43,673 nt of DNA, from positions 1 through 43,673 of the forward strand of contig MNYV01000120.1 of the NCBI GenBank assembly GCA_001873285.1, given 5' to 3'. The notes beneath the pieces are model-generated. The model was not told where the DNA came from. It saw nothing but the letters and a program-made list of their open reading frames with translations, and made no database searches. Made by a program: the position numbers and the translations under genes. This document shows, in pieces, positions 5,382 through 40,783 of this stretch (the first letter of the stretch is position 1; every line of letters starts with the position of its first letter). The stretch comes from Nitrospirae bacterium CG2_30_53_67. GTDB lineage: Bacteria > CG2-30-53-67.

Positions 5382-5385
5382 CTCG

Positions 5386-8627: not shown

Positions 8628-8656
8628 TGATAATAATATACTTTCGTTTTCCTTAT

Positions 8657-8725
8657 GTGCCGACTTATCGGCACGATTGTTCCGTTCTAAATTTTTGGAG
8701 GGGCGGCCTGAAAGGTCGCCCCTCC
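8657..8725. other. Two hairpins just downstream of aprA
   Basis: GTGCCGA-CTTA-TCGGCAC (8657-8674) repeats the hairpin found at the end of ykgJ copy 2. GGAGGGGCG...CGCCCCTCC (8697-8725) is a strong GC-rich stem 37 bases past the aprA stop. Neither is followed by a U-run on the minus strand. They look more like transcript-stabilising or REP-type structures than classical terminators. Confidence 0.55.
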
Positions 8726-8761
8726 ATACATCATCTCATGGTCTACTATTTAATTAAACGA

Positions 8762-10687: not shown

Positions 10688-10706
10688 GTTTTCTCTCCTT
10701 TTTTAT

Positions 10707-24847: not shown

Positions 24848-25792
24848 ATGGCAGTTGAGATCCTGAAAGAGAAGTATACAGGCAAAGTGAATACCGTCAC
24901 CATCGGGACCGGCGACAAGGCCGTGACCGTGGGCGGGGCGACCGCGCTTCCCTTTCATCTCTTTGAAGGAGAGGCCGGGAACCGTCCTTTAATCGCCTAT
25001 GAGGTGCTGGATCTGCCGCCTGAGGACGCGCCTTTAGCCCAGAAAGAGGCATGGGGTGCGTTATGGAGCGATCCGGTTCAGTGGGCCAGGTACTGTCAGA
25101 ATGAACTCTCGGCAAGGGCCGTGGCCTTGCGGCTGATCAGCACGGACCCGGACGGCAAGAACGCCGGTCCCGAAGAAGCGGCTGATACCGTCAAGAAGGT
25201 TCTGGCCGCCATTGATATCCCGCTCATCATCCTCGGCTCTTTCAAGGAGGCCAAGGACGGCCAGGTTCTGAAGGTGGTCGCCGACGCGGCCAGAGGGCGG
25301 AACTGCCTGATCGGTAAGGCCCAGGAGGAGAACTACAAGACCATCGCCGCTGCGGCCATCTCCAACGGCCATAAACTGATCGCCTTCTCCAATCTGGACT
25401 TCAACCTGTCCAAACAGATTAATATCCTTCTGACCCAGACCGGGTTCAACATCAACGATATCGTCATTGACCCCACGGCCAGCGCCCTCGGGTATGGTCT
25501 GGAATACACCTATTCCGTGATCGAAAGGATCCGGGCCTCCGCCCTCATACAGAACGATGCGATGATGCAGCCTCCCATGCTCTTGGATCTGGCCTCCGTG
25601 GTCTGGAAGGTCAAAGAGGTGAAGGCCGGCGAGGACCAGATGCCGGGATGGGGGGATGTCGGGGAGCGGGGAACGCACTGGGAGGCTTCCACGGCTGTCA
25701 GCATGCTCATGGCCGGTACGGAGATCCTGGTTATGTCATCACCCAAGGCGGTTCAGACCGTGGAGAAGACGATTGATCAGTTGATGGCGTAA
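24848..25792 (+). CDS. acsD: Corrinoid iron-sulfur protein, small subunit
   Basis: Small (beta/delta) subunit of the corrinoid iron-sulfur protein that carries the methyl group between AcsE and AcsB. It is a TIM-barrel protein of 314 residues. Typical segments are ALPFHLFEGEAGNRPLIAYEVLDLPPEDAP near 36-65, and the cobamide-pocket region near 205-225 (DIVIDPTASALGYGLEYTYSVIERIR). GAAGAAGAGGAG precedes the ATG. It is followed by acsC in the order D then C. Confidence 0.95.
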   Translation: MAVEILKEKYTGKVNTVTIGTGDKAVTVGGATALPFHLFEGEAGNRPLIAYEVLDLPPEDAPLAQKEAWGALWSDPVQWARYCQNELSARAVALRLISTDPDGKNAGPEEAADTVKKVLAAIDIPLIILGSFKEAKDGQVLKVVADAARGRNCLIGKAQEENYKTIAAAAISNGHKLIAFSNLDFNLSKQINILLTQTGFNINDIVIDPTASALGYGLEYTYSVIERIRASALIQNDAMMQPPMLLDLASVVWKVKEVKAGEDQMPGWGDVGERGTHWEASTAVSMLMAGTEILVMSSPKAVQTVEKTIDQLMA

Positions 25793-25797
25793 AATCT

Positions 25798-25894
25798 AAG
25801 GGTTCGAGGGTTCCAGGGGTCGAGGGGTCGAGTGTTTGTTTCCGATGAAATTCTCTTTGCACTTCACTTTGCCCCTTGAACCCTGGACCCCTTT
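25798..25894. repeat. GGGTCAAGG-type hairpin repeat between acsD and acsC
   Basis: GGTTCGAGGGTTCCAGGGG-type units (25800-25833) are mirrored by CCCCTTGAACCCTGGACCCC (25872-25891). Long hairpin possible. No 28-base terminal repeats, unlike the two TIR elements. Confidence 0.65.
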
Positions 25895-25956
25895 TGGTCA
25901 CAAAATGAGAAGGATCTGAAAAGGATAATATTAAAAGATAATATTAGGAGACAACA

Positions 25957-27297
25957 ATGGCCCTGACCGGTATAGAAATCTTCAAACACCTGCCCAAGAC
26001 CAACTGTAAGGACTGCGGGTTCCCGACCTGCCTGGCCTTTGCCATGAAGCTTGCGGCCAAGCAGGTCTCATTGGATGCCTGCCCGCATGCATCAGAAGAA
26101 GCCAAGGCCTTTTTGGGCGCGGCGTCGGCGCCTCCTGTGCGCAAGGTCGTGATCGGCGCCGGAGATGCGGCCTGGCCCCTCGGGGAGGAGACCGTCCTCT
26201 TCAGGCATGAAAAGAAATTCGTCAATCCCTGCGCGTACGCCGTCCAGGTCGGAGACAACGATCCGGAACTTGCGGCCAAGATCAAACAGATCGCGGACTT
26301 CAAGGTCGACCGGGTGGGGGTGAACTACGGTGTGAACATGATCGCGGTTCAGGACAGATCCGGCGGCGGGGCGGCCTTTTCAGCGGCCGTGAAAAAGGTT
26401 GTGGATGCAGCGCCCGGCCTGGGGGTCCTCCTCATGAGCCGGGACGCTCAAAGAATCGGTGCGGCCCTTTCGTCATGTGAAGGGAAGAAGCCGCTGGTCT
26501 ACGGAGCGGACAAAGAGAATCTGGAGCAGCTCCTCCCCCTGGTCAAAGGCAAGGCATCCCTGGTTCTCAGCGCCGGGAATCTGGACGAACTCTCGGCCAT
26601 GGCCGAAAAAGCCGCCGGCGCCGGCGTGGAAGACCTGATCCTGGACCCCATGCCGGGGAACGCCAGGGAGGCCCTGGAGAGATTCACGATGATGCGCCGC
26701 CTTGCCGTCAAGAAGAACTACAAACCCTTCGGGTATCCTCTTTTCATGAACGCCGTTCATGAGGATGCCCAGGTTGAGGGGGCGCTGGCCGCCCTCGGGA
26801 CCATGAAATACGCCTCGGTCATCCTGCTCGGGGCGCTCCGGTCGTGGGAGATGCTGGGCCTTCTCACGGGCAGGCTCAACATCTATACGGACCCGCAGAA
26901 ACCCATGCAGGTTGATCAGAAGATTTATGAAATGGGGACGGTCAACGGGAACTCTCCTTTGATTGTGACCACGAACTTCGCCCTGACTTATTTCATTGTG
27001 GCCGGTGAGATCGAGAACAGCAAGGTGCCGGCCAGGCTTGCCGTTCAGGACGTGGAAGGGTTATCCGTGCTCACGGCCTGGGCCGCCGGCAAGTTTACGG
27101 CAGGTTCCATTGCGAATTTTATCAAGGAATCCGGTGTGGAAAATCAGCTCGCGAAAAAGGAAGTCATCCTTCCTGGCTATGTCGCAGTCCTCTCCGGGTC
27201 ACTGGAAGACAAACTGGGCAACGGCTGGAAGGTGGTGGTCGGCCCCCGGGAAGCGAATCAAATCCCGCAATTCCTGAAAGCCCGGGCAAATGGATGA
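25957..27297 (+). CDS. acsC: Corrinoid iron-sulfur protein, large subunit
   Basis: Large (gamma) subunit. The N-terminal domain binds one [4Fe-4S] cluster through C17, C20, C25 and C42, used for reductive activation of cobalt. A TIM barrel follows, then a C-terminal cobamide-binding domain (LSVLTAWAAGKFTAGSIANF near 368-387, and PGYVAVLSG). 446 residues, normal. Its last codons overlap the start of a 49-codon ORF. Works with AcsD, AcsE, AcsB and the RACo-like activator at 41.2 kb. Confidence 0.96.
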   Translation: MALTGIEIFKHLPKTNCKDCGFPTCLAFAMKLAAKQVSLDACPHASEEAKAFLGAASAPPVRKVVIGAGDAAWPLGEETVLFRHEKKFVNPCAYAVQVGDNDPELAAKIKQIADFKVDRVGVNYGVNMIAVQDRSGGGAAFSAAVKKVVDAAPGLGVLLMSRDAQRIGAALSSCEGKKPLVYGADKENLEQLLPLVKGKASLVLSAGNLDELSAMAEKAAGAGVEDLILDPMPGNAREALERFTMMRRLAVKKNYKPFGYPLFMNAVHEDAQVEGALAALGTMKYASVILLGALRSWEMLGLLTGRLNIYTDPQKPMQVDQKIYEMGTVNGNSPLIVTTNFALTYFIVAGEIENSKVPARLAVQDVEGLSVLTAWAAGKFTAGSIANFIKESGVENQLAKKEVILPGYVAVLSGSLEDKLGNGWKVVVGPREANQIPQFLKARANG

Positions 27298-27439
27298 GAT
27301 CCTTGATCCGTTTGCGTATTTCCTGAAGGATCGTGTAAAATGGCAGATGAAAGGACCCCTGTTTCTGAACAGAGGCCTGAAAAGGATTTTCTTTGCGCAA
27401 AAAGTCATAAGAAGAGAAGATTTTTTATATGAATTGTGA
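27290..27439 (+). CDS. Unrecognised 49-residue ORF between acsC and acsB
   Basis: An ATG at 27290 overlaps the acsC stop and opens a 49-codon frame ending 18 bases before acsB, so it fills the spacer almost completely. The product would be basic and aromatic-rich: MDEILDPFAYFLKDRV at the start, then a Lys/Arg and Phe-rich middle (FLNRGLKRIFF) and an acidic end. No cysteines and no membrane segment. No clear ribosome site, but overlap with acsC would allow coupled translation. I know no family for it; it may be a chance frame. Confidence 0.4.
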   Translation: MDEILDPFAYFLKDRVKWQMKGPLFLNRGLKRIFFAQKVIRREDFLYEL

Positions 27440-27457
27440 AGTGAGGAGATATGGATT

Positions 27458-29659
27458 ATGTCAAAGCTGATTGCCTCGGCGGCCATACGCGCCTCTCATG
27501 AGATTCTTGAGAAAGTGGACAGCCTGTTGACGGAGGTTACGGCCGAGAAGGGCGAGGATTTCCAGTTTGAATTCATGGACACGGGATATTTTCTGCCCCA
27601 GATCTATGCCATGACCGGTTTTGCCGTCAAAACGCTCAAGGATATGCGCACGGCCCTTGAGGCCTATGCCCGCCCCCTTCTGAAACCGGTTCCCGAAGAA
27701 AAGGTCTATAAGCCTTATCTGGGTGAGGCCCTGGATGCAGGGATGGCCACCCTCTTTGCCCAGGAGATCCTGATGGCCCTGCGGTATATCAAGGGTCTGG
27801 AGCCGGTCACGGATCCGGAGATGAATCTGACCTACAATGGATTCATTACCGATTCGATCCTCCGGGACCTGGGTTTCCAGTTGGTGGACGGGTCCATGCC
27901 GGGCTACGTAGTCATCCTCGGCGCGGCCGAGAGCGACGAGCGGGCCGAGCAGATCGTGCGGGATCTCCAGCAGAAAAACATCCTGATCTTCCTGGCCGGC
28001 CATGTCAAGGGGAACAGTGTGACCAAGCAGCTTCACCGGAGAGGCGTGGAAATGGGCTGGCCGACCCGGATTGTCCCCCTGGGTCCGGATACCGAGCATA
28101 CGATCTATGCCTTGGACTGGGCGGCGCGGGCCGGGCTCACCTTCGGCGGGCTCAAGGCCGGGGATTATGCGCTCAATCTGAAATATTCCCTGAACCGGGT
28201 CTTTGCCTTTGCCATGGTCCTGGGGGATCTGGACGATATGAAATGGGCGACCGGCGCCGGGGCCATCAATCAGGGATTCCCTGCGGTTTGCGACACCGAT
28301 GTCCCGGAGATCCGGCCGAGAGGCGTGTGCACCTACGAGCACGTGGTCCGCGAACTGGATCAGGACAAGATCGTCCAGACCGCGATCGAGACCCGGGGCC
28401 TCAAGATCATCGTGGAAAAGCCGCCCATCCCCGTGGCGTATGGTCCGGCCTTCGAAGGAGAGCGGATCCGCAAGGAGGATACCTTCCTGGAGTTCGGGGG
28501 GAACCAGTCTCCTTCCTTCGAGCTGGTGAGGATGCTGAATCTGGATGAGGTTGAGGACGGCAAGGTTGAGCTCATCGGCACCGAAAACGTGGAGAAGTAC
28601 GAAGCCGGCGGGGTCGTTCCCCTCGGGGTGGTGATTGAAGTGGCCGGCCGGAAGATGCAGAAGGATTTCGAGCCGGTCCTCGAGAGGAAGACCCATGACT
28701 TCGTCAACATGGCCCAGGGGGTCTGGCACATGGGACAGCGGGACATCTGCTGGTCCAGGATCAGCAAAAGCGCCTTCAGCGAGGGTTTTCGGATTCACCA
28801 CTTCGGAGAGATTCACGTGGCCATGATGAAGTCCAAGTTTCCGGCCATCGTGGACAAGGTTCAGGTCAAGATCTACACGGACGAGAAAGACGTGGTTCGG
28901 CTCAGGGACGAGGCGCGGAAGGTCTACCATGAACGCGATATCCGTGTCGCCAACATGACCGACGAGTCCGTAGATACCTATTATTCCTGCCTCCTCTGCC
29001 AGTCCTTCGCGCCCAACCACGTCTGCGTGGTTTCACCCGAGAGACTCGGCCTCTGCGGCGCAGTCAACTGGATGGACGCCAAAGCCGCCTTCGAGATCAA
29101 CCCCACAGGCGGGAACCAGCCCGTGAAGAAGGGAGAGACCCTCGATGCGGTCAAGGGCCGTTGGACGGGTGTGGAAGAATACGTGAAGAAGGAGTCCCAC
29201 GGCGCGCTCGATGGGTTCTCGGCCTATTCCCTGATGGATGCGCCCATGACCTCCTGCGGATGCTTTGAGGCCATTGTGTCCGTGGTCCCTGAGGCCAACG
29301 GAATCATGATCGTGGACAGGGGATATCCGGGCATGACGCCGATCGGGATGAAGTTCTCCACCCTGGCGGGCACCGTGGGCGGAGGGACCCAGACGCCGGG
29401 TTTTACGGGAATCGGAAAGTATTTCATCACGAGCAGAAAGTTTTTAACGGCGGATGGAGGATTCAAGCGGATCGTCTGGCTCACGACGAGTATCAAAAAT
29501 CAGTTGGGCGAGGCGCTGAAGAAGCGGGCCGAGGAGATCGGGGAACCGGATCTCCTAAACAAGATCGCCGACGAGACCGTGGCGGTCGACGCCGAGCAGC
29601 TGGTCGCTTTTCTGACCGAGAAGGGGCATCCGGCCCTGACCATGGAGTCTATGTTCTGA
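27458..29659 (+). CDS. acsB: Acetyl-CoA synthase (CO-methylating), alpha subunit
   Basis: Joins CO, the methyl group of AcsCD and CoA into acetyl-CoA at the Ni-Ni-[4Fe-4S] A-cluster. The 733 residues match the bacterial three-domain enzyme (729 in Moorella). A-cluster cysteines are C511, C514, C523 and C533, and the distal-nickel loop is C600-G601-C602. Every one is exactly five residues after its Moorella counterpart. The N-terminal domain, missing from archaeal CdhC, binds CO dehydrogenase and is present. GAGGAG precedes the ATG. It is followed by acsA after 111 bases. Confidence 0.97.
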   Translation: MSKLIASAAIRASHEILEKVDSLLTEVTAEKGEDFQFEFMDTGYFLPQIYAMTGFAVKTLKDMRTALEAYARPLLKPVPEEKVYKPYLGEALDAGMATLFAQEILMALRYIKGLEPVTDPEMNLTYNGFITDSILRDLGFQLVDGSMPGYVVILGAAESDERAEQIVRDLQQKNILIFLAGHVKGNSVTKQLHRRGVEMGWPTRIVPLGPDTEHTIYALDWAARAGLTFGGLKAGDYALNLKYSLNRVFAFAMVLGDLDDMKWATGAGAINQGFPAVCDTDVPEIRPRGVCTYEHVVRELDQDKIVQTAIETRGLKIIVEKPPIPVAYGPAFEGERIRKEDTFLEFGGNQSPSFELVRMLNLDEVEDGKVELIGTENVEKYEAGGVVPLGVVIEVAGRKMQKDFEPVLERKTHDFVNMAQGVWHMGQRDICWSRISKSAFSEGFRIHHFGEIHVAMMKSKFPAIVDKVQVKIYTDEKDVVRLRDEARKVYHERDIRVANMTDESVDTYYSCLLCQSFAPNHVCVVSPERLGLCGAVNWMDAKAAFEINPTGGNQPVKKGETLDAVKGRWTGVEEYVKKESHGALDGFSAYSLMDAPMTSCGCFEAIVSVVPEANGIMIVDRGYPGMTPIGMKFSTLAGTVGGGTQTPGFTGIGKYFITSRKFLTADGGFKRIVWLTTSIKNQLGEALKKRAEEIGEPDLLNKIADETVAVDAEQLVAFLTEKGHPALTMESMF

Positions 29660-29770
29660 TCACAGGCCTCCGGAGGATAATCCCTCGGTTCCTTTTTCGG
29701 GTATACGGAGCCGGCGAATATCAAAAGGAAAATTTCAACCTGCAGAGGGGGAAGTAAAGGAGCAGCCCTG

Positions 29771-31765
29771 ATGAGCAAAGAAATCAGTACGCAAGATCTG
29801 ATCAACATGACCATTGACGAGACGGCCAAGGATCTCCTGAAGGTGGCGGAAAGAGAGGGGATCTCCACCGCCTTCAAGCGAGCGATTGAGGTCAAGCCCT
29901 GCCCCATCGGCAGGGATGGGATGTGCTGCAAGCACTGCTTCATGGGCCCCTGCCGGATCACGCCCAAAACGCCGAACGGCGTTTGCGGGGCCGATGTGGA
30001 TACGATCGCAGCCCGGAACTTCGGACGGATGGTCGCCGCGGGCGCGGCAGCCCATGCCGACCACGGGAGAGACATGGCCTTCATCCTCCTCGCCGCTTCC
30101 CGGGGAGAGACCGAGGGAATCAAGATCAAGGACGTAAAAAAGCTCCATGCCGTGGCCGGGCATCTGAAGATCGATATCCAGGGAAAGACCACGGAGAAGA
30201 TCGGTGAGGAAGCGGCGCTGAAGTTCCTCGAAGACTTCGGGCGCCAGAAGGGGGATATCAACTATATCCGGAGGGCGCCGAAGAAAAGGCAGGAACTCTG
30301 GAAGCAGAAGAATCTCCTCCCGAGGGGGCTCGACCGTGAGATTGTGGAGATGATGCACCGGACCCACATGGGCGTGGACCAGGACCCCAAGAGCCTGCTC
30401 CACCATACGCTTAGGACCTCTCTGACCGACGGCTGGGGCGGGGCCATGATAGCCACGGACGTGTCCGACATCCTGTACGGGACACCCACGCCGGTTAAGG
30501 CCAAGATGAGCGTCGGCCTCCTCAAGGAGGACGAGGTGAACATCATCGTGCACGGCCATGAGCCGTCTTTGTCCGAGATGATGGTCGTGGCATCGCAGGA
30601 GCCGGAGATGCTCACATACGCCAAGAGCAAAGGGGCCAACGGGATCAACCTGGCAGGCATCTGCTGCACCGCGAACGAGGTGCTCATGCGCCAGGGGATC
30701 GGCTCCGCCGGGAACTTCCTGAACCAGGAGCTCACGATCCTCACCGGCGCCGTGGAGGCCATGGTCGTGGATGTGCAGTGCATCATGGAATCCCTGGCAG
30801 ACGTGGCTAAGCATTATCACACCAAGCTGATCACGAGTTCACCCAAGGCCCATATTCCCGGGGCCATTCATATCGAATTCGACGAGGAGCATGCCATGAC
30901 CGTGGCCCGCAAGGTCCTGAGGACGGCCATTGATAATTTCCCCAACCGCAAGAAGGGCGCCATCACCCTTCCGGACTACGTGAGCGAGGCCATCGGCGGT
31001 TTCTCTCATGAGTATATCAAATATATGCAGGGCGGGACCTACCGGGGTTCGTTCAGACCTTTAAATGACGCCATCATGGACGGACGGATCCAGGGCGTGG
31101 TCGGGATCGTGGGATGCAACAACCCGCGCAACGTTCATGACTCCGAAATCGTGGAGCTGGCCAAGGAGTTCATCAGCCGGGATATCCTGGTGGTGACCAC
31201 GGGGTGCGGCGGGATCGCCTGCGGGAAGCAGGGGATGCTCGCTCCCGAGACCATGGCGGCCGCCGGCCCGGGTCTCAGAGAGGTCTGTGAGGCCATCGGG
31301 ATCTCTCCGGTCCTCCATGTGGGATCCTGCGTGGACAACACCCGGATTCTCACCATCGCGACCGACATGGTCAAGGAAGGCGGCCTGGGAGACGATATCA
31401 GCGATCTTCCCGCGGTCGGTCTCTGTCCGGAATGGATGTCGGAGAAGGCCCTGGCCATCGGCTGTTACTTCGTAGCCTCCGGGGTCTATACGATCTTCGG
31501 CGTAGGCTCTCCGGTCTCGGGGAGCGAAAACGTCACCCGGATGATGAGCGAAGGCTGGGAGCAGGAGGTCGGCGGCAGGCTCGAATTTATCCCCGATCGG
31601 CAGAAGGTCATCGAGAAGACCATTGAGCACATCACCAGGAAGAGAAAGGCCCTCGGGATCACCGAATATGCGAAAGGGAAGTTCGGGGCGCAGAAGGTCC
31701 TGATGGATATGACAGACCGCCGGAAACTCGAAGACGAACAGAAGAAAGCGATGGCAGGCAAATGA
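29771..31765 (+). CDS. acsA: Carbon-monoxide dehydrogenase, catalytic (beta) subunit
   Basis: Ni-Fe CO dehydrogenase that interconverts CO2 and CO for AcsB. 664 residues. The N terminus has the B/D-cluster cysteines (CPIGRDGMCCKHCFMGPCR near 44-62). C-cluster ligands are recognisable: the histidine in VHGHEP, then cysteines in AGICCTANE, DVQCIME, GIVGCNNPR, TTGCGGIACGKQG and HVGSCVDN. AAAGGAG precedes the ATG. The stop overlaps the start of the NuoE-like gene by ATGA, tying CO dehydrogenase expression to the formate dehydrogenase cassette. Confidence 0.97.
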   Translation: MSKEISTQDLINMTIDETAKDLLKVAEREGISTAFKRAIEVKPCPIGRDGMCCKHCFMGPCRITPKTPNGVCGADVDTIAARNFGRMVAAGAAAHADHGRDMAFILLAASRGETEGIKIKDVKKLHAVAGHLKIDIQGKTTEKIGEEAALKFLEDFGRQKGDINYIRRAPKKRQELWKQKNLLPRGLDREIVEMMHRTHMGVDQDPKSLLHHTLRTSLTDGWGGAMIATDVSDILYGTPTPVKAKMSVGLLKEDEVNIIVHGHEPSLSEMMVVASQEPEMLTYAKSKGANGINLAGICCTANEVLMRQGIGSAGNFLNQELTILTGAVEAMVVDVQCIMESLADVAKHYHTKLITSSPKAHIPGAIHIEFDEEHAMTVARKVLRTAIDNFPNRKKGAITLPDYVSEAIGGFSHEYIKYMQGGTYRGSFRPLNDAIMDGRIQGVVGIVGCNNPRNVHDSEIVELAKEFISRDILVVTTGCGGIACGKQGMLAPETMAAAGPGLREVCEAIGISPVLHVGSCVDNTRILTIATDMVKEGGLGDDISDLPAVGLCPEWMSEKALAIGCYFVASGVYTIFGVGSPVSGSENVTRMMSEGWEQEVGGRLEFIPDRQKVIEKTIEHITRKRKALGITEYAKGKFGAQKVLMDMTDRRKLEDEQKKAMAGK

Positions 31766-32313
31766 AGAAGAAGAGTCAACCTTCCTCTGTAAAAAAGGGT
31801 GAGGAAGAAAAGAAACGGGCAAGAAAAATGCCGAAGGACAAGACGGTCGTGGATGAAGGGATTGATCTGACTCCTGTGGACGAAATCGTCGCGCGTTTTC
31901 ATGGGGTAAAAGGCGCTCTGATCCCTGTGCTCCAGGAGGTTCAAGGTCATTACGGCTACATCCCCGAGGAGGCGGTCAAATTGATCGCAGAGGGGCTGCG
32001 CCTCTTTGCAAGCAGTATTTATGGGGTGATGACCTTTTACACCCAGTTTCACCTCAAGCCCCGCGGCAAGAACATTATCCGGGTCTGCTGCGGCACGGCC
32101 TGCCACGTCAGGGGCGGAGAGAGGGTGAGAAGCAAGTTCCAGGAGATCCTCAAGGTTTCCATGGGAGAAACCACCGATGACCGTCTCTTCACCCTGGAGC
32201 AGGTGGCCTGTATCGGCGCCTGTTCCCTGGCGCCGTCCATGATGGTCAACGATGAGGTGCACGGCCACGTCACCCCCGATGAGGCAGTGAAGATCCTGGA
32301 TCAGTATAAATAA
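31762..32313 (+). CDS. NuoE/HydA-type [2Fe-2S] thioredoxin-like subunit
   Basis: A 183-residue subunit of an NAD(P)-linked oxidoreductase. After a ~30-residue lysine-rich N terminus comes the NuoE helical domain (LIPVLQEVQGHYGYIPEEAVKLIAEGL). The thioredoxin-like fold follows, with [2Fe-2S] ligands in CCGTACHVRGG and then VACIGACSLAP. Homologues are NuoE, HoxE, HydC and StnA. It starts inside the acsA stop (ATGA). It most likely works with the following NuoF-GltD fusion and FdhA rather than with complex I, since no other nuo genes are present. Confidence 0.9.
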   Translation: MKKKSQPSSVKKGEEEKKRARKMPKDKTVVDEGIDLTPVDEIVARFHGVKGALIPVLQEVQGHYGYIPEEAVKLIAEGLRLFASSIYGVMTFYTQFHLKPRGKNIIRVCCGTACHVRGGERVRSKFQEILKVSMGETTDDRLFTLEQVACIGACSLAPSMMVNDEVHGHVTPDEAVKILDQYK

Positions 32314-32315
32314 CC

Positions 32316-32368
32316 GTTCAAGCCGTTCAAATGGTTTAAACGGCTTGAATCATTTGAATCGATTGAAC
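32316..32368. repeat. Short inverted repeat between the NuoE-like and NuoF-GltD genes
   Basis: GTTCAAGCCGTTCAAATG pairs with CATTTGAATCGATTGAAC (15 of 18). An alternative inner stem AAGCCGTT/AACGGCTT is also possible. No U-run, so it is not an obvious terminator. Confidence 0.5.
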
Positions 32369-32393
32369 CGGACAGCTATTTAAGGTAATACCC

Positions 32394-35300
32394 ATGGCCA
32401 CACAGAAGAAGAAAAGCGCCTCCAAAACCAAGCCGGAGAAGACCTCGGCGCCCAAGGGCAAGAGTGCGGGGAGGGAAGGCGTATCCAAGACCCGGACGTC
32501 GAACCGGAAGACCCGCATCCTGGTGGGGATGGGGACATGCGGCCGGGCGGCTGGGGCGCTGAAGGTCTATGATCTCCTGTCGGATCTGATCAAACGGAAC
32601 AAGGTGGATGCCGAGGTGACACAGACGGGCTGCATCGGGATGTGTTCTCAGGAAGTTCTGATAGACGTGCAGCTCCAGGGCAGGACGCGTGTTCTCTACG
32701 GGAACCTCAGCCCGGTCAAGGATGGGTATCGTCAGGTCATAGAGAAGATTGTGGAAGATCATCTCATGAACGGCCGGGTCTGCAAAGAGCACGCCTTCGC
32801 TCAGATCAAGCCGGTCAACGGGGAGCAGCCTTATGATGGGATCCCCTTTTATGAGGATCTATCGTTTAATTCCGCTCAGGAACGGATCGTCCTTAGAAAT
32901 TGCGGATCCATGGACCCGGAGAGCATTGATGAGTATATCACTCGAGACGGATACCGGGCATTGACCCGCGTCCTGAAAGAGATGACTCCCGAAGGGGTGG
33001 TGGATGAGGTCAAACGTTCCGGGCTTCGGGGCAGAGGCGGCGCCGGATTTCCCACGGGCTTGAAATGGGGTTTCGCCGCTATGGCCAAAGGCGACGTGAA
33101 GTACATGATCTGTAATGCCGATGAGGGAGACCCCGGCGCCTTCATGGACCGATCGGTCCTGGAGGGGGATCCCCATTCCGTACTGGAAGGGATGGTGATC
33201 GGCGGATACGCGATGGGCGCCCATACCGGGTATATTTACGTCCGCGCCGAATATCCCCTGGCCGTGAAACGCCTGAAGATCGCCATTGCCCAGGCCGAGG
33301 AGCGGGGCTTCCTCGGCAGGAATATCCTGGGGTCCGGATTTGACTTTGAGATCCATATCAAGCAGGGGGCCGGCGCCTTTGTCTGCGGTGAGGAGACGGC
33401 CCTGATCGCCTCCATCGAAGGGAAGAGGGGGATGCCCCGGCCCAAGCCGCCCTTTCCTGCCAACCAGGGTCTCTGGGGGAAACCTACCAATATCAACAAT
33501 GTGGAGACCCTGGCCAACATCGCCCCCATTATCCTCCGCGGCGGAGAGTGGTATGCGGGATTCGGCGCCGAGAAGAGCAAGGGGACCAAGGTCTTCGCCC
33601 TGGCCGGCAAGATCAATAAGCCGGGCCTGATCGAGGTCCCTATGGGGACGTCTCTACGCAGCATCATCTACGATATCGGCGGCGGATGCCCCCAGGGGAA
33701 AAAATTCAAGGCCGTGCAGACCGGCGGGCCTTCGGGCGGGTGTATCCCCGCCTCCCTGATTGATACGTCGGTCGATTACGAATCTCTGGTCAAGCTGGGA
33801 ACCATTATGGGATCCGGCGGCATGGTGATCATGGATGAGGGGACCTGCATGGTGGAGATGGCGCGGTATTTCCTGCACTTCACCCAGGATGAATCCTGCG
33901 GCAAGTGCGTCCCCTGCCGCATCGGGACCAAGAGGATGCTGGAGATCCTGGAGAGGATCGTCAACGGCAAGGGGGAGGCGGGCGACGTGGATCTCCTGAA
34001 GGACCTGGGAGAAGATATCAAGGCGGCTTCCCTCTGCGGTCTCGGCCGGACTGCGCCCAACCCCGTTCTCAGCACCATCCGGTATTTTCAGGATGAGTAT
34101 GAAGCTCACATCAAGTATAAACGATGTCCTTCATTCGTCTGCAAGGAAATCATATCTTCCGCCTGCCAGCATACCTGCCCGATCGGCACAGAGGCATCGG
34201 TCTATACGGCCTTAATCGCCCATGGACGTTTTGAGGAGGCCGTTCAGATCATCAGGAAAGACAATCCGTTGGCGAGCGTCTGTGCGAGGGTTTGCCATCA
34301 TCCTTGTGAACTCACGTGCAAGGCGGGTGAAGGAGGAGGAAAACCCATCGCCATCAGGGCCTTGAAACGCTTTGCCATGGACTATGCCCGCAAAAAAAAG
34401 ATAAAAGCCCAAATTCCAAGGAAGGAATTAAAGAATCAGAAGGCTGCCGTGATCGGCTCCGGGCCGGCCGGGTTGACGGCGGGTTACTTCCTTGCCCTGA
34501 AAGGCTATGACGTCACGATTTTTGAGGCCAAGACTGTTGTGGGCGGCATGCTCAGAATTGCCATACCTGAATACCGCTTGCCCAAAGAAGTTTTTGGCCT
34601 CGATCTTGCTTTCATGGAAGATGCGGGGGTAAAATTCAAAACGGGCGCCGCATTGGGAAAAGATATTTCTATTGACAGCCTCTTTGAGGAAGGCTATAAG
34701 GCGATATTTATTGCGATCGGTTCCCACCAGTCGATGAAACTGGGTATTCCCGGCGAAGAGACCCAGGGCATGATTCCTTCCCTGAGGTTTCTTGAAGCAG
34801 CCAATACCGGCCGGAAGATCGAGATCGGGAAGAGGGTCGTGGTTCTCGGCGGCGGCAACTCCGCTGTGGATTCGGCCAGGACTGCACACCGCATCAAAGG
34901 GACAGAGAAGATCGCCCTCCTTTACAGAAGGACAAGGTCGGAGATGCCTGCCTATACCGAGGAGATAGAGGCGGCCCTGGAAGAAGGCGTTGAAATGCAA
35001 TTTCTGACCGCACCGGTCAAGGCGCTCAGTCGGAACGGAAAGGTATGCGGTTTGGAATGCGTCCGCATGAAATTGGGGGAGCTTGATAAAAGCGGAAGGG
35101 CAAGGCCTGTTCCTATTGAAGGTTCTGAGTTCGTGGTTGATGCGGACACCGTGATCGTGGCGATCGGTGAACAACCCGACACGTCCTCCATTCATGAAAG
35201 GGACGGGCTTGAGGTCTCTCAAAGGAACACGCTCGTGGCGGATCCGGAGACCCTGGCGACGTCACGGGAAGGTGTTTTTGCCGGCGGAGACGTGGTGACA

Positions 35301-35621
35301 GGTTCCAATACCGTCATCCATGCCATGCAGGCCGGCAGGAAGGCGGCTGAATCCATGGATCAATATCTCAAAGGTGAGAGTCTGGAAAAAAGATATGATG
35401 TGACCAGGCCCTCTCGATATATCGAACCGGTCTCGCTTACCGTTGAGGAAATCATGGAAGCAGACCGTCCTCCGATGCCCCTGCTCCCGGTTGAGAAGAG
35501 GAAGAACAATTTCAGAGAAGTGGAGCTTGGGTTTGCCGAAGAAACGGCGGTTAAAGAGGCCAAGCGATGTCTCAGGTGCGAATTGAGCACGCTGGACGGG
35601 CAAAAGCCGTTCAGGAAATAG
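32394..35621 (+). CDS. NuoF-like NADH/FMN subunit fused to a GltD/NfnB-like FAD-NAD(P) domain
   Basis: A 1075-residue iron-sulfur flavoprotein. In order: a Lys/Ser/Thr-rich N terminus (1-40); a thioredoxin-like [2Fe-2S] domain with C49, C80 and C84; a NuoF domain with GLRGRGGAGFPTGLKW, NADEGDPGAFMDR and the [4Fe-4S] motif C502, C505, C508 plus a later cysteine; then from about 575 a GltD/NfnB-like part with its own cysteine-rich N-terminal region (CQHTCPIG, CARVCHHPCELTC), FAD motif VIGSGPAGLTAGYF near 684, and a second dinucleotide motif VVLGGGNSAVDSAR near 816. It thus has two potential pyridine-nucleotide sites, like StnB and StnC of the Sporomusa-type transhydrogenase joined in one chain. 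It sits between a NuoE-like gene and fdhA. Electron bifurcation is inferred. Confidence 0.9.
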   Translation: MATQKKKSASKTKPEKTSAPKGKSAGREGVSKTRTSNRKTRILVGMGTCGRAAGALKVYDLLSDLIKRNKVDAEVTQTGCIGMCSQEVLIDVQLQGRTRVLYGNLSPVKDGYRQVIEKIVEDHLMNGRVCKEHAFAQIKPVNGEQPYDGIPFYEDLSFNSAQERIVLRNCGSMDPESIDEYITRDGYRALTRVLKEMTPEGVVDEVKRSGLRGRGGAGFPTGLKWGFAAMAKGDVKYMICNADEGDPGAFMDRSVLEGDPHSVLEGMVIGGYAMGAHTGYIYVRAEYPLAVKRLKIAIAQAEERGFLGRNILGSGFDFEIHIKQGAGAFVCGEETALIASIEGKRGMPRPKPPFPANQGLWGKPTNINNVETLANIAPIILRGGEWYAGFGAEKSKGTKVFALAGKINKPGLIEVPMGTSLRSIIYDIGGGCPQGKKFKAVQTGGPSGGCIPASLIDTSVDYESLVKLGTIMGSGGMVIMDEGTCMVEMARYFLHFTQDESCGKCVPCRIGTKRMLEILERIVNGKGEAGDVDLLKDLGEDIKAASLCGLGRTAPNPVLSTIRYFQDEYEAHIKYKRCPSFVCKEIISSACQHTCPIGTEASVYTALIAHGRFEEAVQIIRKDNPLASVCARVCHHPCELTCKAGEGGGKPIAIRALKRFAMDYARKKKIKAQIPRKELKNQKAAVIGSGPAGLTAGYFLALKGYDVTIFEAKTVVGGMLRIAIPEYRLPKEVFGLDLAFMEDAGVKFKTGAALGKDISIDSLFEEGYKAIFIAIGSHQSMKLGIPGEETQGMIPSLRFLEAANTGRKIEIGKRVVVLGGGNSAVDSARTAHRIKGTEKIALLYRRTRSEMPAYTEEIEAALEEGVEMQFLTAPVKALSRNGKVCGLECVRMKLGELDKSGRARPVPIEGSEFVVDADTVIVAIGEQPDTSSIHERDGLEVSQRNTLVADPETLATSREGVFAGGDVVTGSNTVIHAMQAGRKAAESMDQYLKGESLEKRYDVTRPSRYIEPVSLTVEEIMEADRPPMPLLPVEKRKNNFREVELGFAEETAVKEAKRCLRCELSTLDGQKPFRK

Positions 35622-35658
35622 CCGTGAGGAAAAGAAACCATTCATAAGAAGGTTTGAG

Positions 35659-38361
35659 ATGGATAGAATGAATTTAACCATCAACAATAAAAAAATAGCC
35701 GTACCCGCAGGGAGCACCATCCTGGAGGCGGCGCAGAGCGCCGGAATTCATATCCCCACGCTCTGTTATTATAAGCGGCTTTCCCCTTACGGAGGGTGCC
35801 GGGTTTGTATTGTCCAAGTCGAGGGGATCCCGAGGCTCGTGGCATCCTGTACCACGCCTGCGTCCGAAGGGATGGTGGTCCGCACGGATTCCGAGCAGAT
35901 TCGGAAGATCCGCAAGACCGTGGTGGAACTGATGCTCTCCAATCATCCGAACGAATGTATGCTCTGTGAGCAGAACGGCCGCTGCGAGCTGCAGGATCTG
36001 GCCTATGAGTTCGGTCTCAAGGAGATCCGTTTCCAGGGAGAGAGGAGCCGTTACGAGATCGAAAACCGGAACCCCATGATCGAGCGGGACTACAACAAGT
36101 GCATCCTCTGCGGCCGGTGCGTGCGCGTGTGCGACGAGGTCCAGGCGGTCGGCGCCGTAGACTTTTCCAAGCGCGGCTTTCATGCCAAGATCGCCTCGGA
36201 GTTCGACGGGGTGCTGAATTGCGAATTCTGCGGGAATTGTGTGGAGGCCTGTCCGGTAGGCGCGCTGACGGGCAAGATCTCCCGCTTCAAAGGGAGACCC
36301 TGGGAGGCCAAAAAGGTCAAAACCGTCTGCAACTACTGCGGGTGCGGCTGCAGCCTGATCCTGCATGCCCAGGAAGGGAAGGTCATCCGGGTCACCCACG
36401 CGGAGGGCGAGTGCGTCAATGAAGGGTTCATGTGCGTCAAGGGGAAGTTCGGGTTCGAGTATATCAGCCATCAAGACCGTCTCAAGACGCCTTTGATCAA
36501 AAAGAACGGGAGCTTCGTGGAGGCAAGCTGGGACGAGGCCCTGAAGACCGTGGCGGATAACCTGTCGAGGGTCAAGAAGGAGTACGGCAATAACAGCATC
36601 GGCGGTCTCTGTTCGGCCAAATGCACCAACGAGGAGAACTACCTCTTCCAAAAATTTATGCGCACGGCGATCGGCACCAACAATGTCGATCACTGCGCAC
36701 GGTATTGACACAGCTCCACGGTCACCGGTCTGGTGACCTCCTTCGGAAGCGGGGCCATGACCAACTCGATCTCCGAGTTTGAGCATTCCGATGCGTACTT
36801 CGTCATCGGGTCCAACATGACCGAGGCCCATCCGATCATTGCGCTGAAGCTGAAACGAGGCGCCCGGTACAACGGGGCCAAGCTCATTGTAGCCGATCCT
36901 CGGGAGATCACCCTTACGAAATATGCCGCCCTTTGGCTCCGGCATAAGCCGGGCACCGATGCCGCGCTGATCAACGGCCTCATGCACGTGATCCTTGATG
37001 AGGGCCTGGAGGATAAGGAGTTCATCGAGGCCAGGACGGAGAACATCACGGCCTTGAAAAAGGTCTTGAAAAAATACACCCCGGCTTTCACCGAGAAGGT
37101 CACCGGCGTGCCCCAGGAGAAGATCATCGAGGCGGCCCGGATCATCGGGGAGAGCGGCACGGTCGCCTTTTTCTATGCCATGGGGATCACCCAGCATATC
37201 ATGGGGACCGAGAACGTGATGTCCGTGGCCAACCTCGCCATGCTCACGGGAAATGTGGGGAGACCCGGAACAGGCGTGAACCCCCTTCGCGGCCAGAGCA
37301 ATGTTCAAGGCGCCTGTGACATGGGCGGGCTTTTCGATTATTATCCCGGGTACCAGCGGGTGGACCTGGAAGAGAACCGGAAGAAGTTCTCTGAGGCCTG
37401 GGAGTGTAATACGCTGAGCCGTGATGCCGGTCTTCCGGCCACGGCCATGATCAACGCGGCCGTGGAGGGAAAGCTCAAGGCCCTCTATGTCATGGGGGAA
37501 AACCCCCTGCTTTCGGATCCGGATATCGGGCATACGGAGAAGGGATTCAAGAACCTCGACTTTCTGGTGGTCCAGGATATCTTCATGACCGAGACCGCGG
37601 CCATGGCCGATGTGGTCCTCCCTGCCGCAAGTTATGCGGAAAAGGACGGGACCTTCACCAATACGGAACGCAGGGTGCAGCTCCTGCGCCAGGTCATCGA
37701 GCCGATCGGGGGGAGCCGGATCGACTGGAAGATCATCATGGAGATCTCCACCCGGATGGGAAGGCCCATGACCTATAAGAACACGGCGGAGATCATGGAC
37801 GAGATCGCCTCGCTCACTCCCATCTACGGCGGGATTTCCCACGAACGCCTGCAGAAGGGAGGGCTCCAGTGGCCCTGCCCGGACAAGAATCATCCGGGGA
37901 CGCCTTATCTGCACAAGGATAAATTCAGCCGGGGCAAGGGCTTCTTCTACCCCGTGGATTATCACCCCCCATCCGAACTTCCGGACCCGGAGTATCCCTT
38001 CCTGCTGACCACGGGCCGGATGCTTTCGCACTACCATACCGGGAGCATGACCCGCAGGGTCAAAGGGCTGAACGAGATCTGCCCCGAGGGGTTTATGGAA
38101 ATCCACCCCAAGGACGCGCGCAGTCTGGATATCGCCGACGGGGAAATGGTCCGTGTCTCTTCCCGAAGGGGGGCCATCACGGTCCGGGCCAAGGTGACCC
38201 GGAAAGTTCCGCCCCAGGTGGTCTATATGAATTTCCATTTTTCGGAATCGCCGGCCAACCGGCTGACCATCGCGGCCCTGGATCCCATGTCCGGGATCGC
38301 CGAGGCCAAGGTCTGCGCCGTCCGGATTGAGAAGCGGAAGCTTCAAGAGACGGCGGTGTAA
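35659..38361 (+). CDS. fdhA: Formate dehydrogenase, selenocysteine-containing catalytic subunit
   Basis: Interconverts CO2 and formate at a molybdenum or tungsten bis-MGD centre. The frame runs through an in-frame TGA at 36706-36708 that must be read as selenocysteine (residue 350): VDHCARY-Sec-HSSTVTG is the classic FdhA active site, and a SECIS hairpin follows. The 900-residue chain has a NuoG-like N terminus: [2Fe-2S] C36, C47, C50, C64, a His-Cys3 cluster near 95-112, two [4Fe-4S] ferredoxin motifs (CILCGRCVRVC and CEFCGNCVEAC near 150-205), then the [4Fe-4S] motif of the catalytic domain from C224. This layout matches soluble NAD(P)-linked FdhF2-type enzymes. AGAAGG precedes the ATG; MNLT at 35668 is an alternative start. 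Partners are the two genes upstream. Confidence 0.96.
36706..36742 (+). promoter_or_regulatory. Bacterial SECIS element with the UGA (Sec) codon of fdhA
   Basis: After the TGA, GGTCACC (36720-36726) and GGTGACC (36732-36738) form a perfect 7-bp stem with loop GGTCT. The loop begins 18 bases past the TGA and matches the GGUCU apical loop of the E. coli fdhF SECIS that binds SelB. It shows the organism has a selenocysteine system (selA, selB, selC elsewhere). Confidence 0.93.
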
Positions 38362-38376
38362 CAAAAGGAGGGCGCC

Positions 38377-38835
38377 ATGCTGCAGAAAGATATACTCCGA
38401 GTCAATCCGCTTTTCGAGGATCTGACCGATGACGACCTGGACAAGGTCATTGAGGTGATCCAGCAAAAGGAGTTTTCCGCCGGATGCGAGATCTTTGACG
38501 AATCCATGCCGGGACGGGAACTCTATATCATTCTCAAAGGAAAAGTCCGCATCATGAAGGCGACGCGGGAAGGAGAACGCCAGACCCTGAGTGTACTGAA
38601 GCCCGGGAATTTCTTTGGCGAGCTCTCCCTGCTGGACGGCCGCAAACATTCTGCGATGGCAGAGGCCGATGAAGCATCCACACTTCTCGTGATCACGAGG
38701 CAGGCCCTGGCCCAGATCGAGAAAAACCATCCCGCGGTGGCCCTGAAGGTGATCAAGAACATGGCCTTGAAGATCAGCGGCATCCTCCGCGAGATGAACG
38801 AAAAGTTTATGGAGATGGTGAATTATATGTGGTAG
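38377..38835 (+). CDS. Stand-alone cyclic-nucleotide-binding domain protein
   Basis: A 152-residue protein with one CRP-like cNMP-binding barrel: ELYIILKGKVRIM near residue 49, then the phosphate-binding cassette FFGELSLLDGRKHSAMAEA near 85-103. It ends in a helix near 130-150 and has no helix-turn-helix, so it is not a classical CRP/FNR transcription factor. AAAGGAGG stands before the ATG, 15 bases after fdhA, so the two are co-expressed. It may regulate the formate dehydrogenase by protein contact or sense a nucleotide; both are inference. Confidence 0.85.
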   Translation: MLQKDILRVNPLFEDLTDDDLDKVIEVIQQKEFSAGCEIFDESMPGRELYIILKGKVRIMKATREGERQTLSVLKPGNFFGELSLLDGRKHSAMAEADEASTLLVITRQALAQIEKNHPAVALKVIKNMALKISGILREMNEKFMEMVNYMW

Positions 38836-39019: not shown

Positions 39020-40783
39020 ATGGCATTGGATCCCAAGAAGCACGCGGACTGGCAGATCGCCGAGGATGCGGAAACAAGAATGAAGACGGTCTATCAGCTG
39101 GCGGATGAGCTGGGCCTGGAGAAGGAGGAACTGCTTCCCCATGGCCACTATGTGGCCAAGGTGGATTTTTCAAAGTTATTAAAGCGGATTGCCGACCGGC
39201 CGGACGGCAAATATATCGATGTCACGGCCATTACGCCGACACCGCTGGGGGAAGGGAAGTCCACCTCGACCATGGGGTTGACCCAGGGACTCGGCATGAG
39301 GGGAAAGAAGGTCACGGCGGCGATCCGGCAGCCATCGGGCGGTCCGACCATGAACATCAAGGGATCGGCCGCGGGCGGCGGTCTCTCCCAGTGTATCCCG
39401 CTCACCCCCTTCTCCCTGGGTCTGACAGGCGACATCAATGCCATCATGAATGCCCACAACCTGGCCATGGTCGCCCTCACCTCGAGGATGCAGCATGAGT
39501 TCAACTACGGCGACAAGGAACTGACCAAGCGTAAGCTGACGCGTCTGAACATCGATCCGAACAACGTGGAGATGGGATGGATCATGGATTTCTGCGCCCA
39601 GTCCCTCCGCAATATCATCATCGGGATCGGCGGCAAGATGGACGGCTTCATGATGCGCTCCAAGTTCGGGATCGCCGTCTCGTCCGAGATCATGGCGATC
39701 CTGGCCGTGTCCACGGATCTCAAGGACATGCGGGAGAGGATGGGCCGGATCGTGGTCGCCTACAACAAGAAGGGAGATCCCGTGACCACGACGGACCTGG
39801 AGGTGGCCGGCGCCATGACCGCCTGGATGGTGGAAGCGCTGAATCCTAACCTGCTTCAGACCATCGAAGGGCAGCCCGTTTTCGTTCATGCCGGGCCCTT
39901 TGCCAACATCGCCATCGGTCAGTCCTCGATCATTGCCGACCGGATCGGTCTGAAACTGAGTGAATACCACGTGACGGAATCGGGTTTCGGCGCCGACATC
40001 GGTTTCGAGAAGTTCTGGAACCTCAAGTGCCGCTTCTCCGGACTCAAACCCCACACGGCCGTGATCGTGGCCACCATCCGGGCCCTGAAATGCCACGGCG
40101 GCGCGCCCATCCCCGTGCCCGGGAGGCCCATGCCGGAGGAATATAAAGGGGAAAACGTGGAATGGGTGGAGAAAGGGTGCGAAAATCTCATTCATCATAT
40201 TAAAACCGTGAAGAAGGCGGGGATCAACCCCGTGGTCTGCATCAACGCCTTCAAGACCGATACCAAGAACGAGATCAAGGTCGTCCGCCGCCTGGCCGAA
40301 TCAGCCGGCGCCCGAGTGGCCGTCTCCAATCATTGGGAGAAGGGGGGCGAGGGCGCCCTTGAGTTTGCGGATGCGGTGATTGATGCCTGCAATGAACCGA
40401 ACAAGTTCAAATATCTCTATGAGCTCAAGACCCCGCTCCGCAGCCGAATCGAGATGATTGCGGAACAGGTCTACGGCGCAGACGGTGTCGAGTATTCCCA
40501 GGAGGCTCTGGACAAGGCCAAGCGGATTGAAGAGGACAAGGAGCTTTCAAAGCTTGGGACCTGCATGGTCAAGACGCACCTCAGCCTGGCGGATAATCCC
40601 ATGATCAAAGGGGTTCCCAAGGCATGGAAGCTCCGTATCCGGGACATTCTCATGTATAAGGGGGCCGGCTTTGTGGTCCCCGTAGCCGGGACCATCAGCC
40701 TGATGCCGGGCACGGCCTCGGATCCGGCGTTCCGCCGTGTGGACGTGGACGTCAAGACAGGAAAGGTCAAAGGCGTATTCTAA
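39020..40783 (+). CDS. fhs: Formate-tetrahydrofolate ligase
   Basis: Makes 10-formyl-THF from formate, ATP and THF, the second step of the methyl branch. It can also run to make ATP when acetate is oxidised. 587 residues. The P-loop-like [16 protein letters not shown] is near residue 74, [19 protein letters not shown] near 102, and FALTSRM-like [10 protein letters not shown] near 152. AGGAGG lies ahead of the ATG. Next step (FolD/FchA) is not encoded in the window. Confidence 0.97.

Follow-up and report, generated by a model that had tools for sequence, protein, structure and literature searches.

A NuoF-GltD fusion beside a selenocysteine formate dehydrogenase: probable replacement of ferredoxin by NADP(H) through exchange of an arm

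A formate dehydrogenase cassette in a Wood-Ljungdahl gene cluster

The window analysed here (the whole stretch of 43,673 nucleotides) comes from an uncultured sulfate reducer (genome G000) and carries its acs/fhs Wood-Ljungdahl cluster, which houses a cassette of three genes coding for NuoE, a NuoF-GltD fusion and FdhA (positions 31762-38361; Table 1). The genes flanking the fusion are the acs genes, nuoE, fdhA, a gene for a cNMP-binding protein, fhs and the RACo gene. As described in the initial annotation, the NuoE-like protein, the 1075-residue fusion, the selenocysteine formate dehydrogenase and the cNMP-domain protein are encoded in a row, and the first gene overlaps acsA, with which it shares 4 bp (ATGA). 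The membership of the cassette has to be narrowed to the first three, since the cNMP gene is missing beside fdhA in two related genomes (G001 and G002) and is thus not a constant member. No GltB partner (Glu_synthase, PF01645) was found among the genes flanking the fusion, and no PyrK/NfnA-type gene in the cassette; an NfnAB-like pair is present elsewhere in the same genome (L103), and among the matches listed there is no second BfuB-type subunit in G000.

Table 1. Position of the cassette, its neighbours and the features discussed in the text (numbering of the window)
Feature	Position	Strand	Evidence or remark
acsA, CODH catalytic subunit	29771..31765	+	TIGR01702, 610 bits; upstream neighbour (context)
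NuoE/HydC/BfuC-like [2Fe-2S] subunit, 183 aa	31762..32313	+	PF01257, E=1.9e-51; Cys 110, 114, 150, 154
NuoF-GltD fusion, 1075 aa	32394..35621	+	Pfam/NCBIfam/PDB matches; full-length homologues
Trx-like [2Fe-2S] domain, fusion residues ~40-130	32511..32783	+	alignment to StnB/HydB
NuoF head, residues 163-577: NADH/FMN site, N3-type [4Fe-4S]	32880..34124	+	Pfam, PDB alignments
Zinc-hinge motif E-Y-E-A-H572-I...C578...C583, residues 568-583	34095..34142	+	junction and recombination breakpoint
GltD/StnC-type arm, residues 589-1063: two [4Fe-4S], FAD, NADP(H) Rossmann fold with YRR	34158..35582	+	
K658 codon, StnC K170 equivalent (cluster-C7 ligand; Glu in NfnB)	34365..34367	+	alignment; PMC10482914
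FdhA, selenocysteine formate dehydrogenase, NuoG-like N terminus, 900 aa	35659..38361	+	TIGR01591, 890 bits (cut-off 666)
In-frame UGA (Sec), the sole in-frame TGA of fdhA	36706..36708	+	same position in G001-G005
SECIS-like hairpin GGUCACC-GGUCU-GGUGACC	36720..36738	+	11 nt past UGA; spotted by eye
cNMP-binding domain protein, 152 aa	38377..38835	+	PF00027; neighbour
fhs, formate-tetrahydrofolate ligase	39020..40783	+	NF010032, 1142 bits; context: formate consumer or producer

The assignment of the third product as a formate dehydrogenase catalytic subunit with a NuoG-like N terminus is borne out by its TIGR01591 score and by the in-frame TGA, which is kept in six genomes (G000 and G001-G005) in the context RYUHSS. 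Its closest PDB relatives are the R. capsulatus formate dehydrogenase alpha subunit and other formate dehydrogenases, and the domain search detected no GltD domain on it. The family match, the selenocysteine in a U-H motif and the presence of selB in the genome place the enzyme among the selenocysteine-type metal-dependent formate dehydrogenases. The SECIS-like hairpin lies within the minimum-energy fold, with a score against shuffled sequences that is not significant (z -1.0), and the Rfam search after the UGA yielded no SECIS match.

Head, hinge and arm of the fusion

According to Pfam, the fusion is composed, in this order, of Complex1_51K (residues 206-377), SLBB (401-449), NADH_4Fe-4S (488-572), Fer4_20 (568-669) and Pyr_redox_2 (684-981). 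The Trx-like domain is StnB-like, with one Cys in its first motif and GCIGMC as the second, and C80 and C84 are invariant in the alignment of the fusions. At the end of the NuoF head lies a zinc hinge, whose H572, C578 and C583 are invariant in 34 aligned fusions; it is directly followed by the GltD arm, that is, in the place where a ferredoxin arm would be. In the search with the modelled structure (pLDDT 86, pTM 0.81), the head matched StnB/HydB/NfnB(ABC) and the arm StnC/NfnA(ABC), and none of the best 50 PDB matches listed spans both halves.

The head appears to be of the bifurcating type, as it bears A249, M251, F329 and GGPSG (444-448), i.e., the residues (A/E, M, F, GGPSG) proposed as criteria in PMC7311640 on the basis of 17 sequences; the match to position 367 of that work is ambiguous, F329 fitting the role described and the other candidate, Y387, being uninformative. 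Among the fusions listed, M251 is kept in 51 of the 51 aligned and F329 in 53/53, and GGPSG is near-invariant, while complex-I-type NuoF proteins have K and Y at the M251 and F329 positions and no GGPSG. No Fer4-type ferredoxin domain was matched in the window fusion, and the CxxCxxCxxxC tail is absent from it and from every fusion listed (0/54). Both B3/B4 motifs are present in 33 of 35 unfused BfuB-type subunits, and those adjoining StnC also keep the ferredoxin tail.

As for the arm, the window fusion and nearly all the others have intact GxGxxG (FAD), GGGNSA (NADP), YRR and GGD motifs, whether the partner is a formate dehydrogenase, a hydrogenase or a glutamate synthase, and eight cluster Cys are conserved. 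The proposal of two separate nucleotide sites, an FMN/NADH one in the head and a FAD/NADP one in the arm, is thus in agreement with the motifs of the fusion, all of which are intact; from motif and homology, we infer that the arm prefers NADP(H) over NAD(H). The same motifs argue against the idea that the arm, coming from glutamate-synthase-type NuoF-GltD complexes, acts mainly as a relay or structural element with a vestigial nucleotide site, which would make the enzyme in effect NAD-dependent; some of the arms nearest to it do belong to loci that carry a gene for a glutamate-synthase FMN domain, but we regard this idea as very improbable.

The residue K658 corresponds to K170 of StnC by residue count on the alignment to 9bov_A, the same alignment setting C114 and Y117 as in the StnC paper. 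Lys occupies this position in 53 of the 54 fusions listed and in 26/26 StnC proteins, and Glu in all eight stand-alone relatives (NfnB/GltD, PRK12771-like). In StnC, the flavin on the Lys side is the non-bifurcating NADPH port (PMC10482914), and an NfnB-like bifurcation at the GltD FAD was rejected on account of the Lys ligand. This bears on the original suggestion of ferredoxin as a fourth substrate, according to which ferredoxin would join formate and the two nucleotides, NAD(H) and NADP(H), in a single hub. Its docking site would then be the [4Fe-4S] clusters of the GltD arm, on the model of NfnAB. Indeed, ferredoxin reduction is served in NfnB, which has the GltD fold, by the bifurcating FAD together with its [4Fe-4S] clusters (PMC10482914), the arm has kept its eight cluster Cys, and docking at these clusters could in principle occur. 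Nevertheless, such a hub appears unlikely, as B3/B4 is exactly what GltD replaces, throughout the fusions listed, and the proximal ligand is the Lys of StnC and not the Glu of NfnB.

Exchange of the arm among relatives and spread of the fusion

The order acsDCBA-nuoE-nuoF-fdhA-(cNMP)-fhs is found at the same locus in G000-G005. In four relatives of the same family (G002-G005), the NuoF protein is unfused and ends in a two-[4Fe-4S] ferredoxin arm (B3/B4), as in bifurcating HydB/BfuB, and in the window genus (G000 and G001) a GltD arm stands in its place. The fusion of G001, the second genome of this genus, lies at the same locus and shares 74% identity with that of the window; along the protein, the identity is 22-82% up to residue ~560 and then mostly 75-98%. 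The window head (residues 161-560) is instead 82-98% identical to the unfused NuoF of G003. The CODH and FdhA trees pair G000 with G001, and the tree in which the heads were forced into one clade gave a p-AU of 0.017. Judging from these sequences, head and arm of the fusion do not share one history, and the break between them falls at the zinc hinge.

One might object that such a mosaic is an assembly misjoin, given that the G000 draft consists of 183 contigs and that head and arm differ in their nearest relatives. This objection is hardly tenable: the fusion of G001 is independent and two in-frame misjoins would be required. Full-length homologues (52-54% identity) are also encoded in three genomes of other groups (G008, G031 and G028); together with the locus shared with G001, they show that the fusion is no assembly artefact. 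The NuoF-GltD-fdhA arrangement, whose search in other genomes had been recommended at the outset, was retrieved both in G001 and in other phyla, where the same fusion adjoins fdhA.

The genome scan, which ran on hinge patterns, so that all fusion counts are lower bounds and fusions with both arms may be under-sampled, retrieved at least 54 NuoF-GltD fusions across about 20 phyla. Their partners are formate dehydrogenase, hydrogenases (with at least 18 [FeFe]-hydrogenase loci harboring HydB-GltD), glutamate synthase and MetVF; the [FeFe]-hydrogenase version also occurs in the cultured Pelotomaculum terephthalicicum JT (L049). The partner types are scattered in both the NuoF and the GltD trees. 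In the latter, the window arm falls inside the group of fusion arms, apart from the stand-alone NfnB/GltD group and from the StnC group, in a clade of 14 with a support of 99. An origin from ordinary glutamate synthase was therefore discarded, even though a glutamate-synthase FMN-domain gene was assigned to the loci of nine arms of this clade: the suspected grouping with glutamate synthase does not hold for ordinary GltD/NfnB and holds for the arms of NuoF-GltD proteins at glutamate-synthase-type loci. Two other candidates were also rejected, i.e., an Acetoanaerobium "plasmid" match covering 95% of the fusion, which is a normal Stn operon with no fusion, and a 1813-aa open frame of G037 taken for a longer fusion, whose NuoF is 607 aa long and closes with the usual ferredoxin tail.

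Possible electron routes and relationship with known systems

On the whole, it is probable, on the strength of domain order and motifs, that the cassette couples formate/CO2 to NAD(H) and NADP(H), NADP having replaced ferredoxin through the exchange of one arm. NuoE, NuoF-GltD and the selenocysteine FdhA would form a cytoplasmic complex, derived from an electron-bifurcating formate dehydrogenase of the Bfu/HydBC type. FdhA would interconvert formate and CO2 and pass electrons via its NuoG-like clusters to the FMN of the head, where NAD(H) would react. The ancestral NuoE and head would have sent the second electrons over the zinc hinge to the B3/B4 [4Fe-4S] clusters and on to ferredoxin; here, the place of these clusters would be taken by a GltD arm of the StnC type that carries FAD, an NADP(H) site and a pair of [4Fe-4S] clusters, one of them with the predicted Lys ligand, so that the second port would serve NADP(H) and not ferredoxin. 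The net result would be the oxidation of formate, or the reduction of CO2, against both NAD(H) and NADP(H). While domain order, loss of B3/B4, bifurcating-type head residues, FAD/NADP motifs, Lys position and swap at the hinge are read in the sequence, the cluster-to-cluster route, the nucleotide specificity and the absence of a reaction with ferredoxin are what we would expect from them.

The least certain point is an obligate coupling of the two nucleotide reactions, i.e., a true bifurcation, and the odds appear to be somewhat against it. The loss of B3/B4 coincides with the loss of bifurcation in the S. wolfei-type HydB, which is non-bifurcating without these clusters (PMC11406978), and thus the coupling may be gone despite the head residues kept. 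A plausible, though not the favoured, reading is that of a non-bifurcating formate dehydrogenase of dual specificity, in which NAD+ and NADP+ are independent exits and formate drives NAD/NADP balancing. With the potentials of PMC9304861 (Table 1 therein), and with -280 and -380 mV averaged, formate oxidation by both NAD+ and NADP+ comes out downhill (about -17 kJ per mol of formate), and therefore no coupling would be needed. On the other hand, practically all the fusions have bifurcating-type head residues, unlike non-bifurcating NuoF, and hinge and NuoE are retained. Returning to the exchange of ferredoxin for NADP(H), we tentatively suggest, with less conviction than for either of the preceding points, a flavin-based bifurcation forming a class of its own, where a HydBC-type FMN head would split electrons between NAD+ and an NADP+ arm, the zinc hinge acting as the swap socket; the electron sources would be H2, glutamate or methylene-THF in the cousins and formate here.

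The StnABC/NfnABC enzymes (Sporomusa ovata; PMC7483475, PMC10482914; PDB 8oh5, 9bov, 9n5u) share with the cassette NuoE, a NuoF head that has both FMN and the zinc hinge, and a GltD domain with FAD and NADP(H), in which a Lys serves as cluster ligand and the RCLxC tail is permuted. As initially stated, and in agreement with PMC10482914, Stn keeps GltD on a separate subunit, the NuoG-like StnC, and the ferredoxin arm on StnB, whereas in the window GltD is on NuoF with no ferredoxin arm, and the third subunit is, unlike in Stn, a true formate dehydrogenase. Another close system is the Type 1 Fdh-Bfu of the Bfu family (PMC9304861), together with the unfused cassettes of G002-G005, which occupy the same operon position in sister genera: NuoE, NuoF, an FdhA with a NuoG-like N terminus and bifurcating-type head residues are common to all. 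The window also shares with the Bfu/HydBC family NuoF/FMN, SLBB, NADH_4Fe-4S, the Trx-like [2Fe-2S] domain and the NuoE-like BfuC subunit, and differs in having an NADP(H) arm instead of the IPR017896-type B3/B4 ferredoxin arm of BfuB. NfnAB has in common a GltD-fold subunit with two [4Fe-4S], FAD and NADP(H), but Glu is at its proximal cluster, and in the window there are Lys and no NfnA partner in the operon. The NADP-dependent formate dehydrogenase of Moorella thermoacetica, compared by its description (PMC5736913), has an FdhB with Fe-S and NADP-binding domains and, unlike the fusion, no NuoF/FMN head is described for it.

A HydB-GltD hydrogenase subunit is already known from one genome paper of 2018 (PMC6163223), whose accessible text describes the same architecture in the trimeric [FeFe]-hydrogenase of Vallitalea guaymasensis L81, where GltD follows the FMN/NADH domain in the position of the two-[4Fe-4S] domain of HydB. 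The case concerns a hydrogenase in one genome, its function was guessed as a glutamate link, and the same text holds no phylogeny or residue analysis of the protein. Together with the hydrogenase loci found here, it makes the assertion that Hyt/Hyd enzymes have only one nucleotide site too strong. Our literature search retrieved no earlier account of the formate dehydrogenase version, of the hinge swap or of its breadth.

In HydBC/Bfu enzymes, the use of ferredoxin is treated as defining; here, a natural swap of the arm between sister genera, with the catalytic subunit kept and in one operon position, opens the functions of the B3/B4 arm and of the hinge to a direct test. Moreover, the occurrence of the NuoF-GltD module with hydrogenases, glutamate synthase and methylene-THF reductase in so many phyla implies that the electron-carrier assignments of anaerobes may need revising; in metabolic models, a gene annotated as NuoF or HydB may mean NADP(H), not ferredoxin.

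A separate observation concerns the key Glu of R. capsulatus FdsB, the target of mutants in NAD/NADP preference, which maps, in an approximate register, near the conserved E333/E334 of the fusion.

Gene organization and host

A row of genes for a NuoE-like protein, a NuoF-GltD fusion, a formate dehydrogenase and a cNMP-binding protein, the first overlapping acsA, had been reported in the initial annotation and is indeed present in the window. The TGA of fdhA is conserved in six genomes; the candidate SECIS hairpin following it did not receive statistical support. The cNMP gene occupies the fdhA-fhs gap in four of the six genomes of the family; no DNA-binding domain was found in its product, which is possibly a regulator of the formate dehydrogenase complex.

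Features of the formate dehydrogenase region and segments of the fusion protein
Feature	Position	Strand	Remarks
acsD-acsC-acsB-acsA	24848-31765	+	
NuoE-like gene	31762-32313	+	4-bp overlap with acsA
NuoF-GltD fusion	32394-35621	+	1075 codons
Trx-like [2Fe-2S] segment, HydB/StnB kind	fusion residues ~40-130		
FMN/NADH head and its [4Fe-4S]	fusion residues 163-577		
Zinc-hinge motif	fusion residues 568-583		H572, C578, C583 invariant, n = 34 fusions
GltD arm	fusion residues 589-1063		
Formate dehydrogenase (fdhA)	35659-38361	+	900 codons, single in-frame TGA
cNMP-binding protein	38377-38835	+	stand-alone, between fdhA and fhs
fhs, then RACo/AcsV-type activase		+	3' of the cNMP gene

The window also encodes MetF and, at 591-11150 on the minus strand, Sat, QmoC with adjoining HdrA-like proteins (probably QmoAB) and AprBA, linking sulfate reduction genes to the Wood-Ljungdahl acs/fdh/fhs cluster. 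Elsewhere, the genome harbors two copies of dsrAB, Rnf, selB, [NiFe]-hydrogenases and an NfnAB-like pair; no [FeFe]-hydrogenase was found in it. Because sat/Qmo/apr and acs/fhs lie in the window and dsrAB and the other genes in the genome, the host, whose phylum counts only eight genomes in our set, resembles a sulfate reducer and carries a Wood-Ljungdahl cluster.

Fusion architecture and exchange of the arm

The structure model of the fusion is confident everywhere but at residues 1-37 and 137-146. Among solved structures, the head best matches the B subunits of NfnABC/Stn and of bifurcating hydrogenases, and the arm, which retains intact FAD and NADP(H) motifs, best matches StnC/NfnA(ABC). 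Concerning the residues that tell bifurcating from non-bifurcating beta subunits (Losey et al., PMC7311640), the bifurcating pattern is nearly universal in the fusions (M251 in 51/51, F329 in 53/53, GGPSG) and is shared by 33/33 BfuB proteins (the NuoF-like Bfu subunit) with a ferredoxin arm; complex-I-type NuoF has K and Y at those positions and mostly no GGPSG. At the position of StnC K170, near which the StnC flavin forms a non-bifurcating NADPH port, Lys occurs in 53 of 54 fusions among the matches listed and in 26/26 StnC, and Glu in 8/8 stand-alone relatives.

In four genomes from sister genera within the window's family (G002-G005) the operon is arranged as in the window, GltD is absent from it, and NuoF continues after the hinge into a two-[4Fe-4S] ferredoxin domain (B3/B4), which in HydABC and Stn is the site of ferredoxin reduction (PMC10482914). 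In the window and in the second genome of its genus (G001), GltD takes the place of this domain directly 3' of the hinge. The two are closest kin by CODH (94%) and FdhA (84-90%); however, NuoE and the NuoF head of the window are nearest to the unfused G003/G005, and in the tree the G001 head is nearest to the unfused G002/G004. Forcing both heads into one group was rejected (p-AU 0.017, in a test picked once the tree was known), and identity between window and G001 is mostly 75-98% from residue ~560 on and 22-82% upstream. We conclude from this that head and arm recombined, with the breakpoint at the hinge.

Possible function and relation to known systems

Read most economically, the sequence describes a formate dehydrogenase in which NAD(H) would react at the bifurcating-type FMN head and NADP(H), rather than ferredoxin, at the second port, the GltD arm; we infer the nucleotide specificity, the cluster distances and the lack of ferredoxin reactivity. 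Using published potentials (formate -420, NADP about -380, NAD about -280 and ferredoxin about -500 mV; PMC9304861), formate oxidation is computed at about -6 kJ/mol before and about -17 kJ/mol after the swap, CO2 reduction becoming correspondingly harder, which would suit an oxidative use of the pathway. The two nucleotide reactions may be coupled, as the bifurcating-type residues of the head would suggest, but the missing B3/B4 speaks against this: S. wolfei-type HydB, also devoid of B3/B4, is non-bifurcating.

The complex falls outside Bfu, whose published definition includes the missing B3/B4 arm, and outside Stn, where GltD resides on a subunit other than the NuoF-type one; its construction blends the two. 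The NuoF-GltD architecture has one earlier mention, for a trimeric [FeFe]-hydrogenase of Vallitalea guaymasensis, in a study that offered a second NAD(P)H site as a guess (PMC6163223). In the literature searched, which covers only a minority of subscription journals, we saw neither the formate dehydrogenase version nor the hinge-precise exchange, the residue pattern or the breadth of partners described.

Distribution and partners of the fusion

Scanning 84,980 species genomes for the hinge, together with genome searches, yielded at least 54 loci with NuoF fused to GltD, spread over about 20 phyla and including one archaeal genome. Among the matches listed, the ferredoxin motif pair occurs in 0/54 fusions; both motifs are present in 33 of 35 unfused BfuB-type subunits from the same loci. 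No fusion keeping both arms was found among the matches listed in a full-length search of 41 genomes, and two-arm fusions could be under-represented, since the scan is biased to NuoF hinges with GltD immediately after. The association with formate dehydrogenase does recur in other genomes, at least 10 of these loci having such a partner. The partner is an [FeFe]-hydrogenase at at least 18 loci, a glutamate-synthase FMN-domain protein at at least nine (two assigned by Pfam, the others from the resemblance of their downstream proteins or gene arrangement), a [NiFe]-hydrogenase at at least three (one by Pfam) and methylene-THF reductase MetVF at at least one; further partners are HdrA-like or poly-ferredoxin proteins, some loci carry no partner assignment, and labels at some truncated loci are provisional.

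Nine loci from several phyla (L024, L025, L028, L033, L036, L039, L040, L048 and L053; e.g., L039:6454-12846) encode consecutively NuoE, the fusion, a HoxU-like Fe-S protein and a ~525-aa protein, the latter with Glu_synthase (PF01645) in 2/2 examined; these would appear to be glutamate synthases in which NADH and NADPH each have a port of their own. A Dehalococcoidales genome (L030:401-7589) groups a NuoG-like N-terminal protein, NuoE, NuoF-GltD, MetV and MetF, which may together form a methylene-THF reductase complex linked to NAD(P). In a Dehalococcoidia genome (L073:8707-12780), one 1357-aa chain unites Fer2-like, GltD and formate-dehydrogenase-like catalytic parts, joining GltD to formate dehydrogenase by a route other than NuoF-GltD. 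At three loci (L034:10542-14466, L035:10536-14438 and L059:10513-14569) NuoF-GltD is followed by a second NuoE, a non-bifurcating-type NuoF and HydA, giving two NuoF proteins per hydrogenase locus. In five deltaproteobacterial loci (L051, L054, L057, L061 and L068) the fusion lies inside a conserved small-protein cluster (by eye one PHP-like, one ATPase-like), in most cases accompanied by NuoE and by a separate Trx-like protein, and no catalytic subunit was found directly downstream of it. Finally, the relative G004 has an extra BfuB-type subunit (L021, C24:34353-35990), absent from the window genome.
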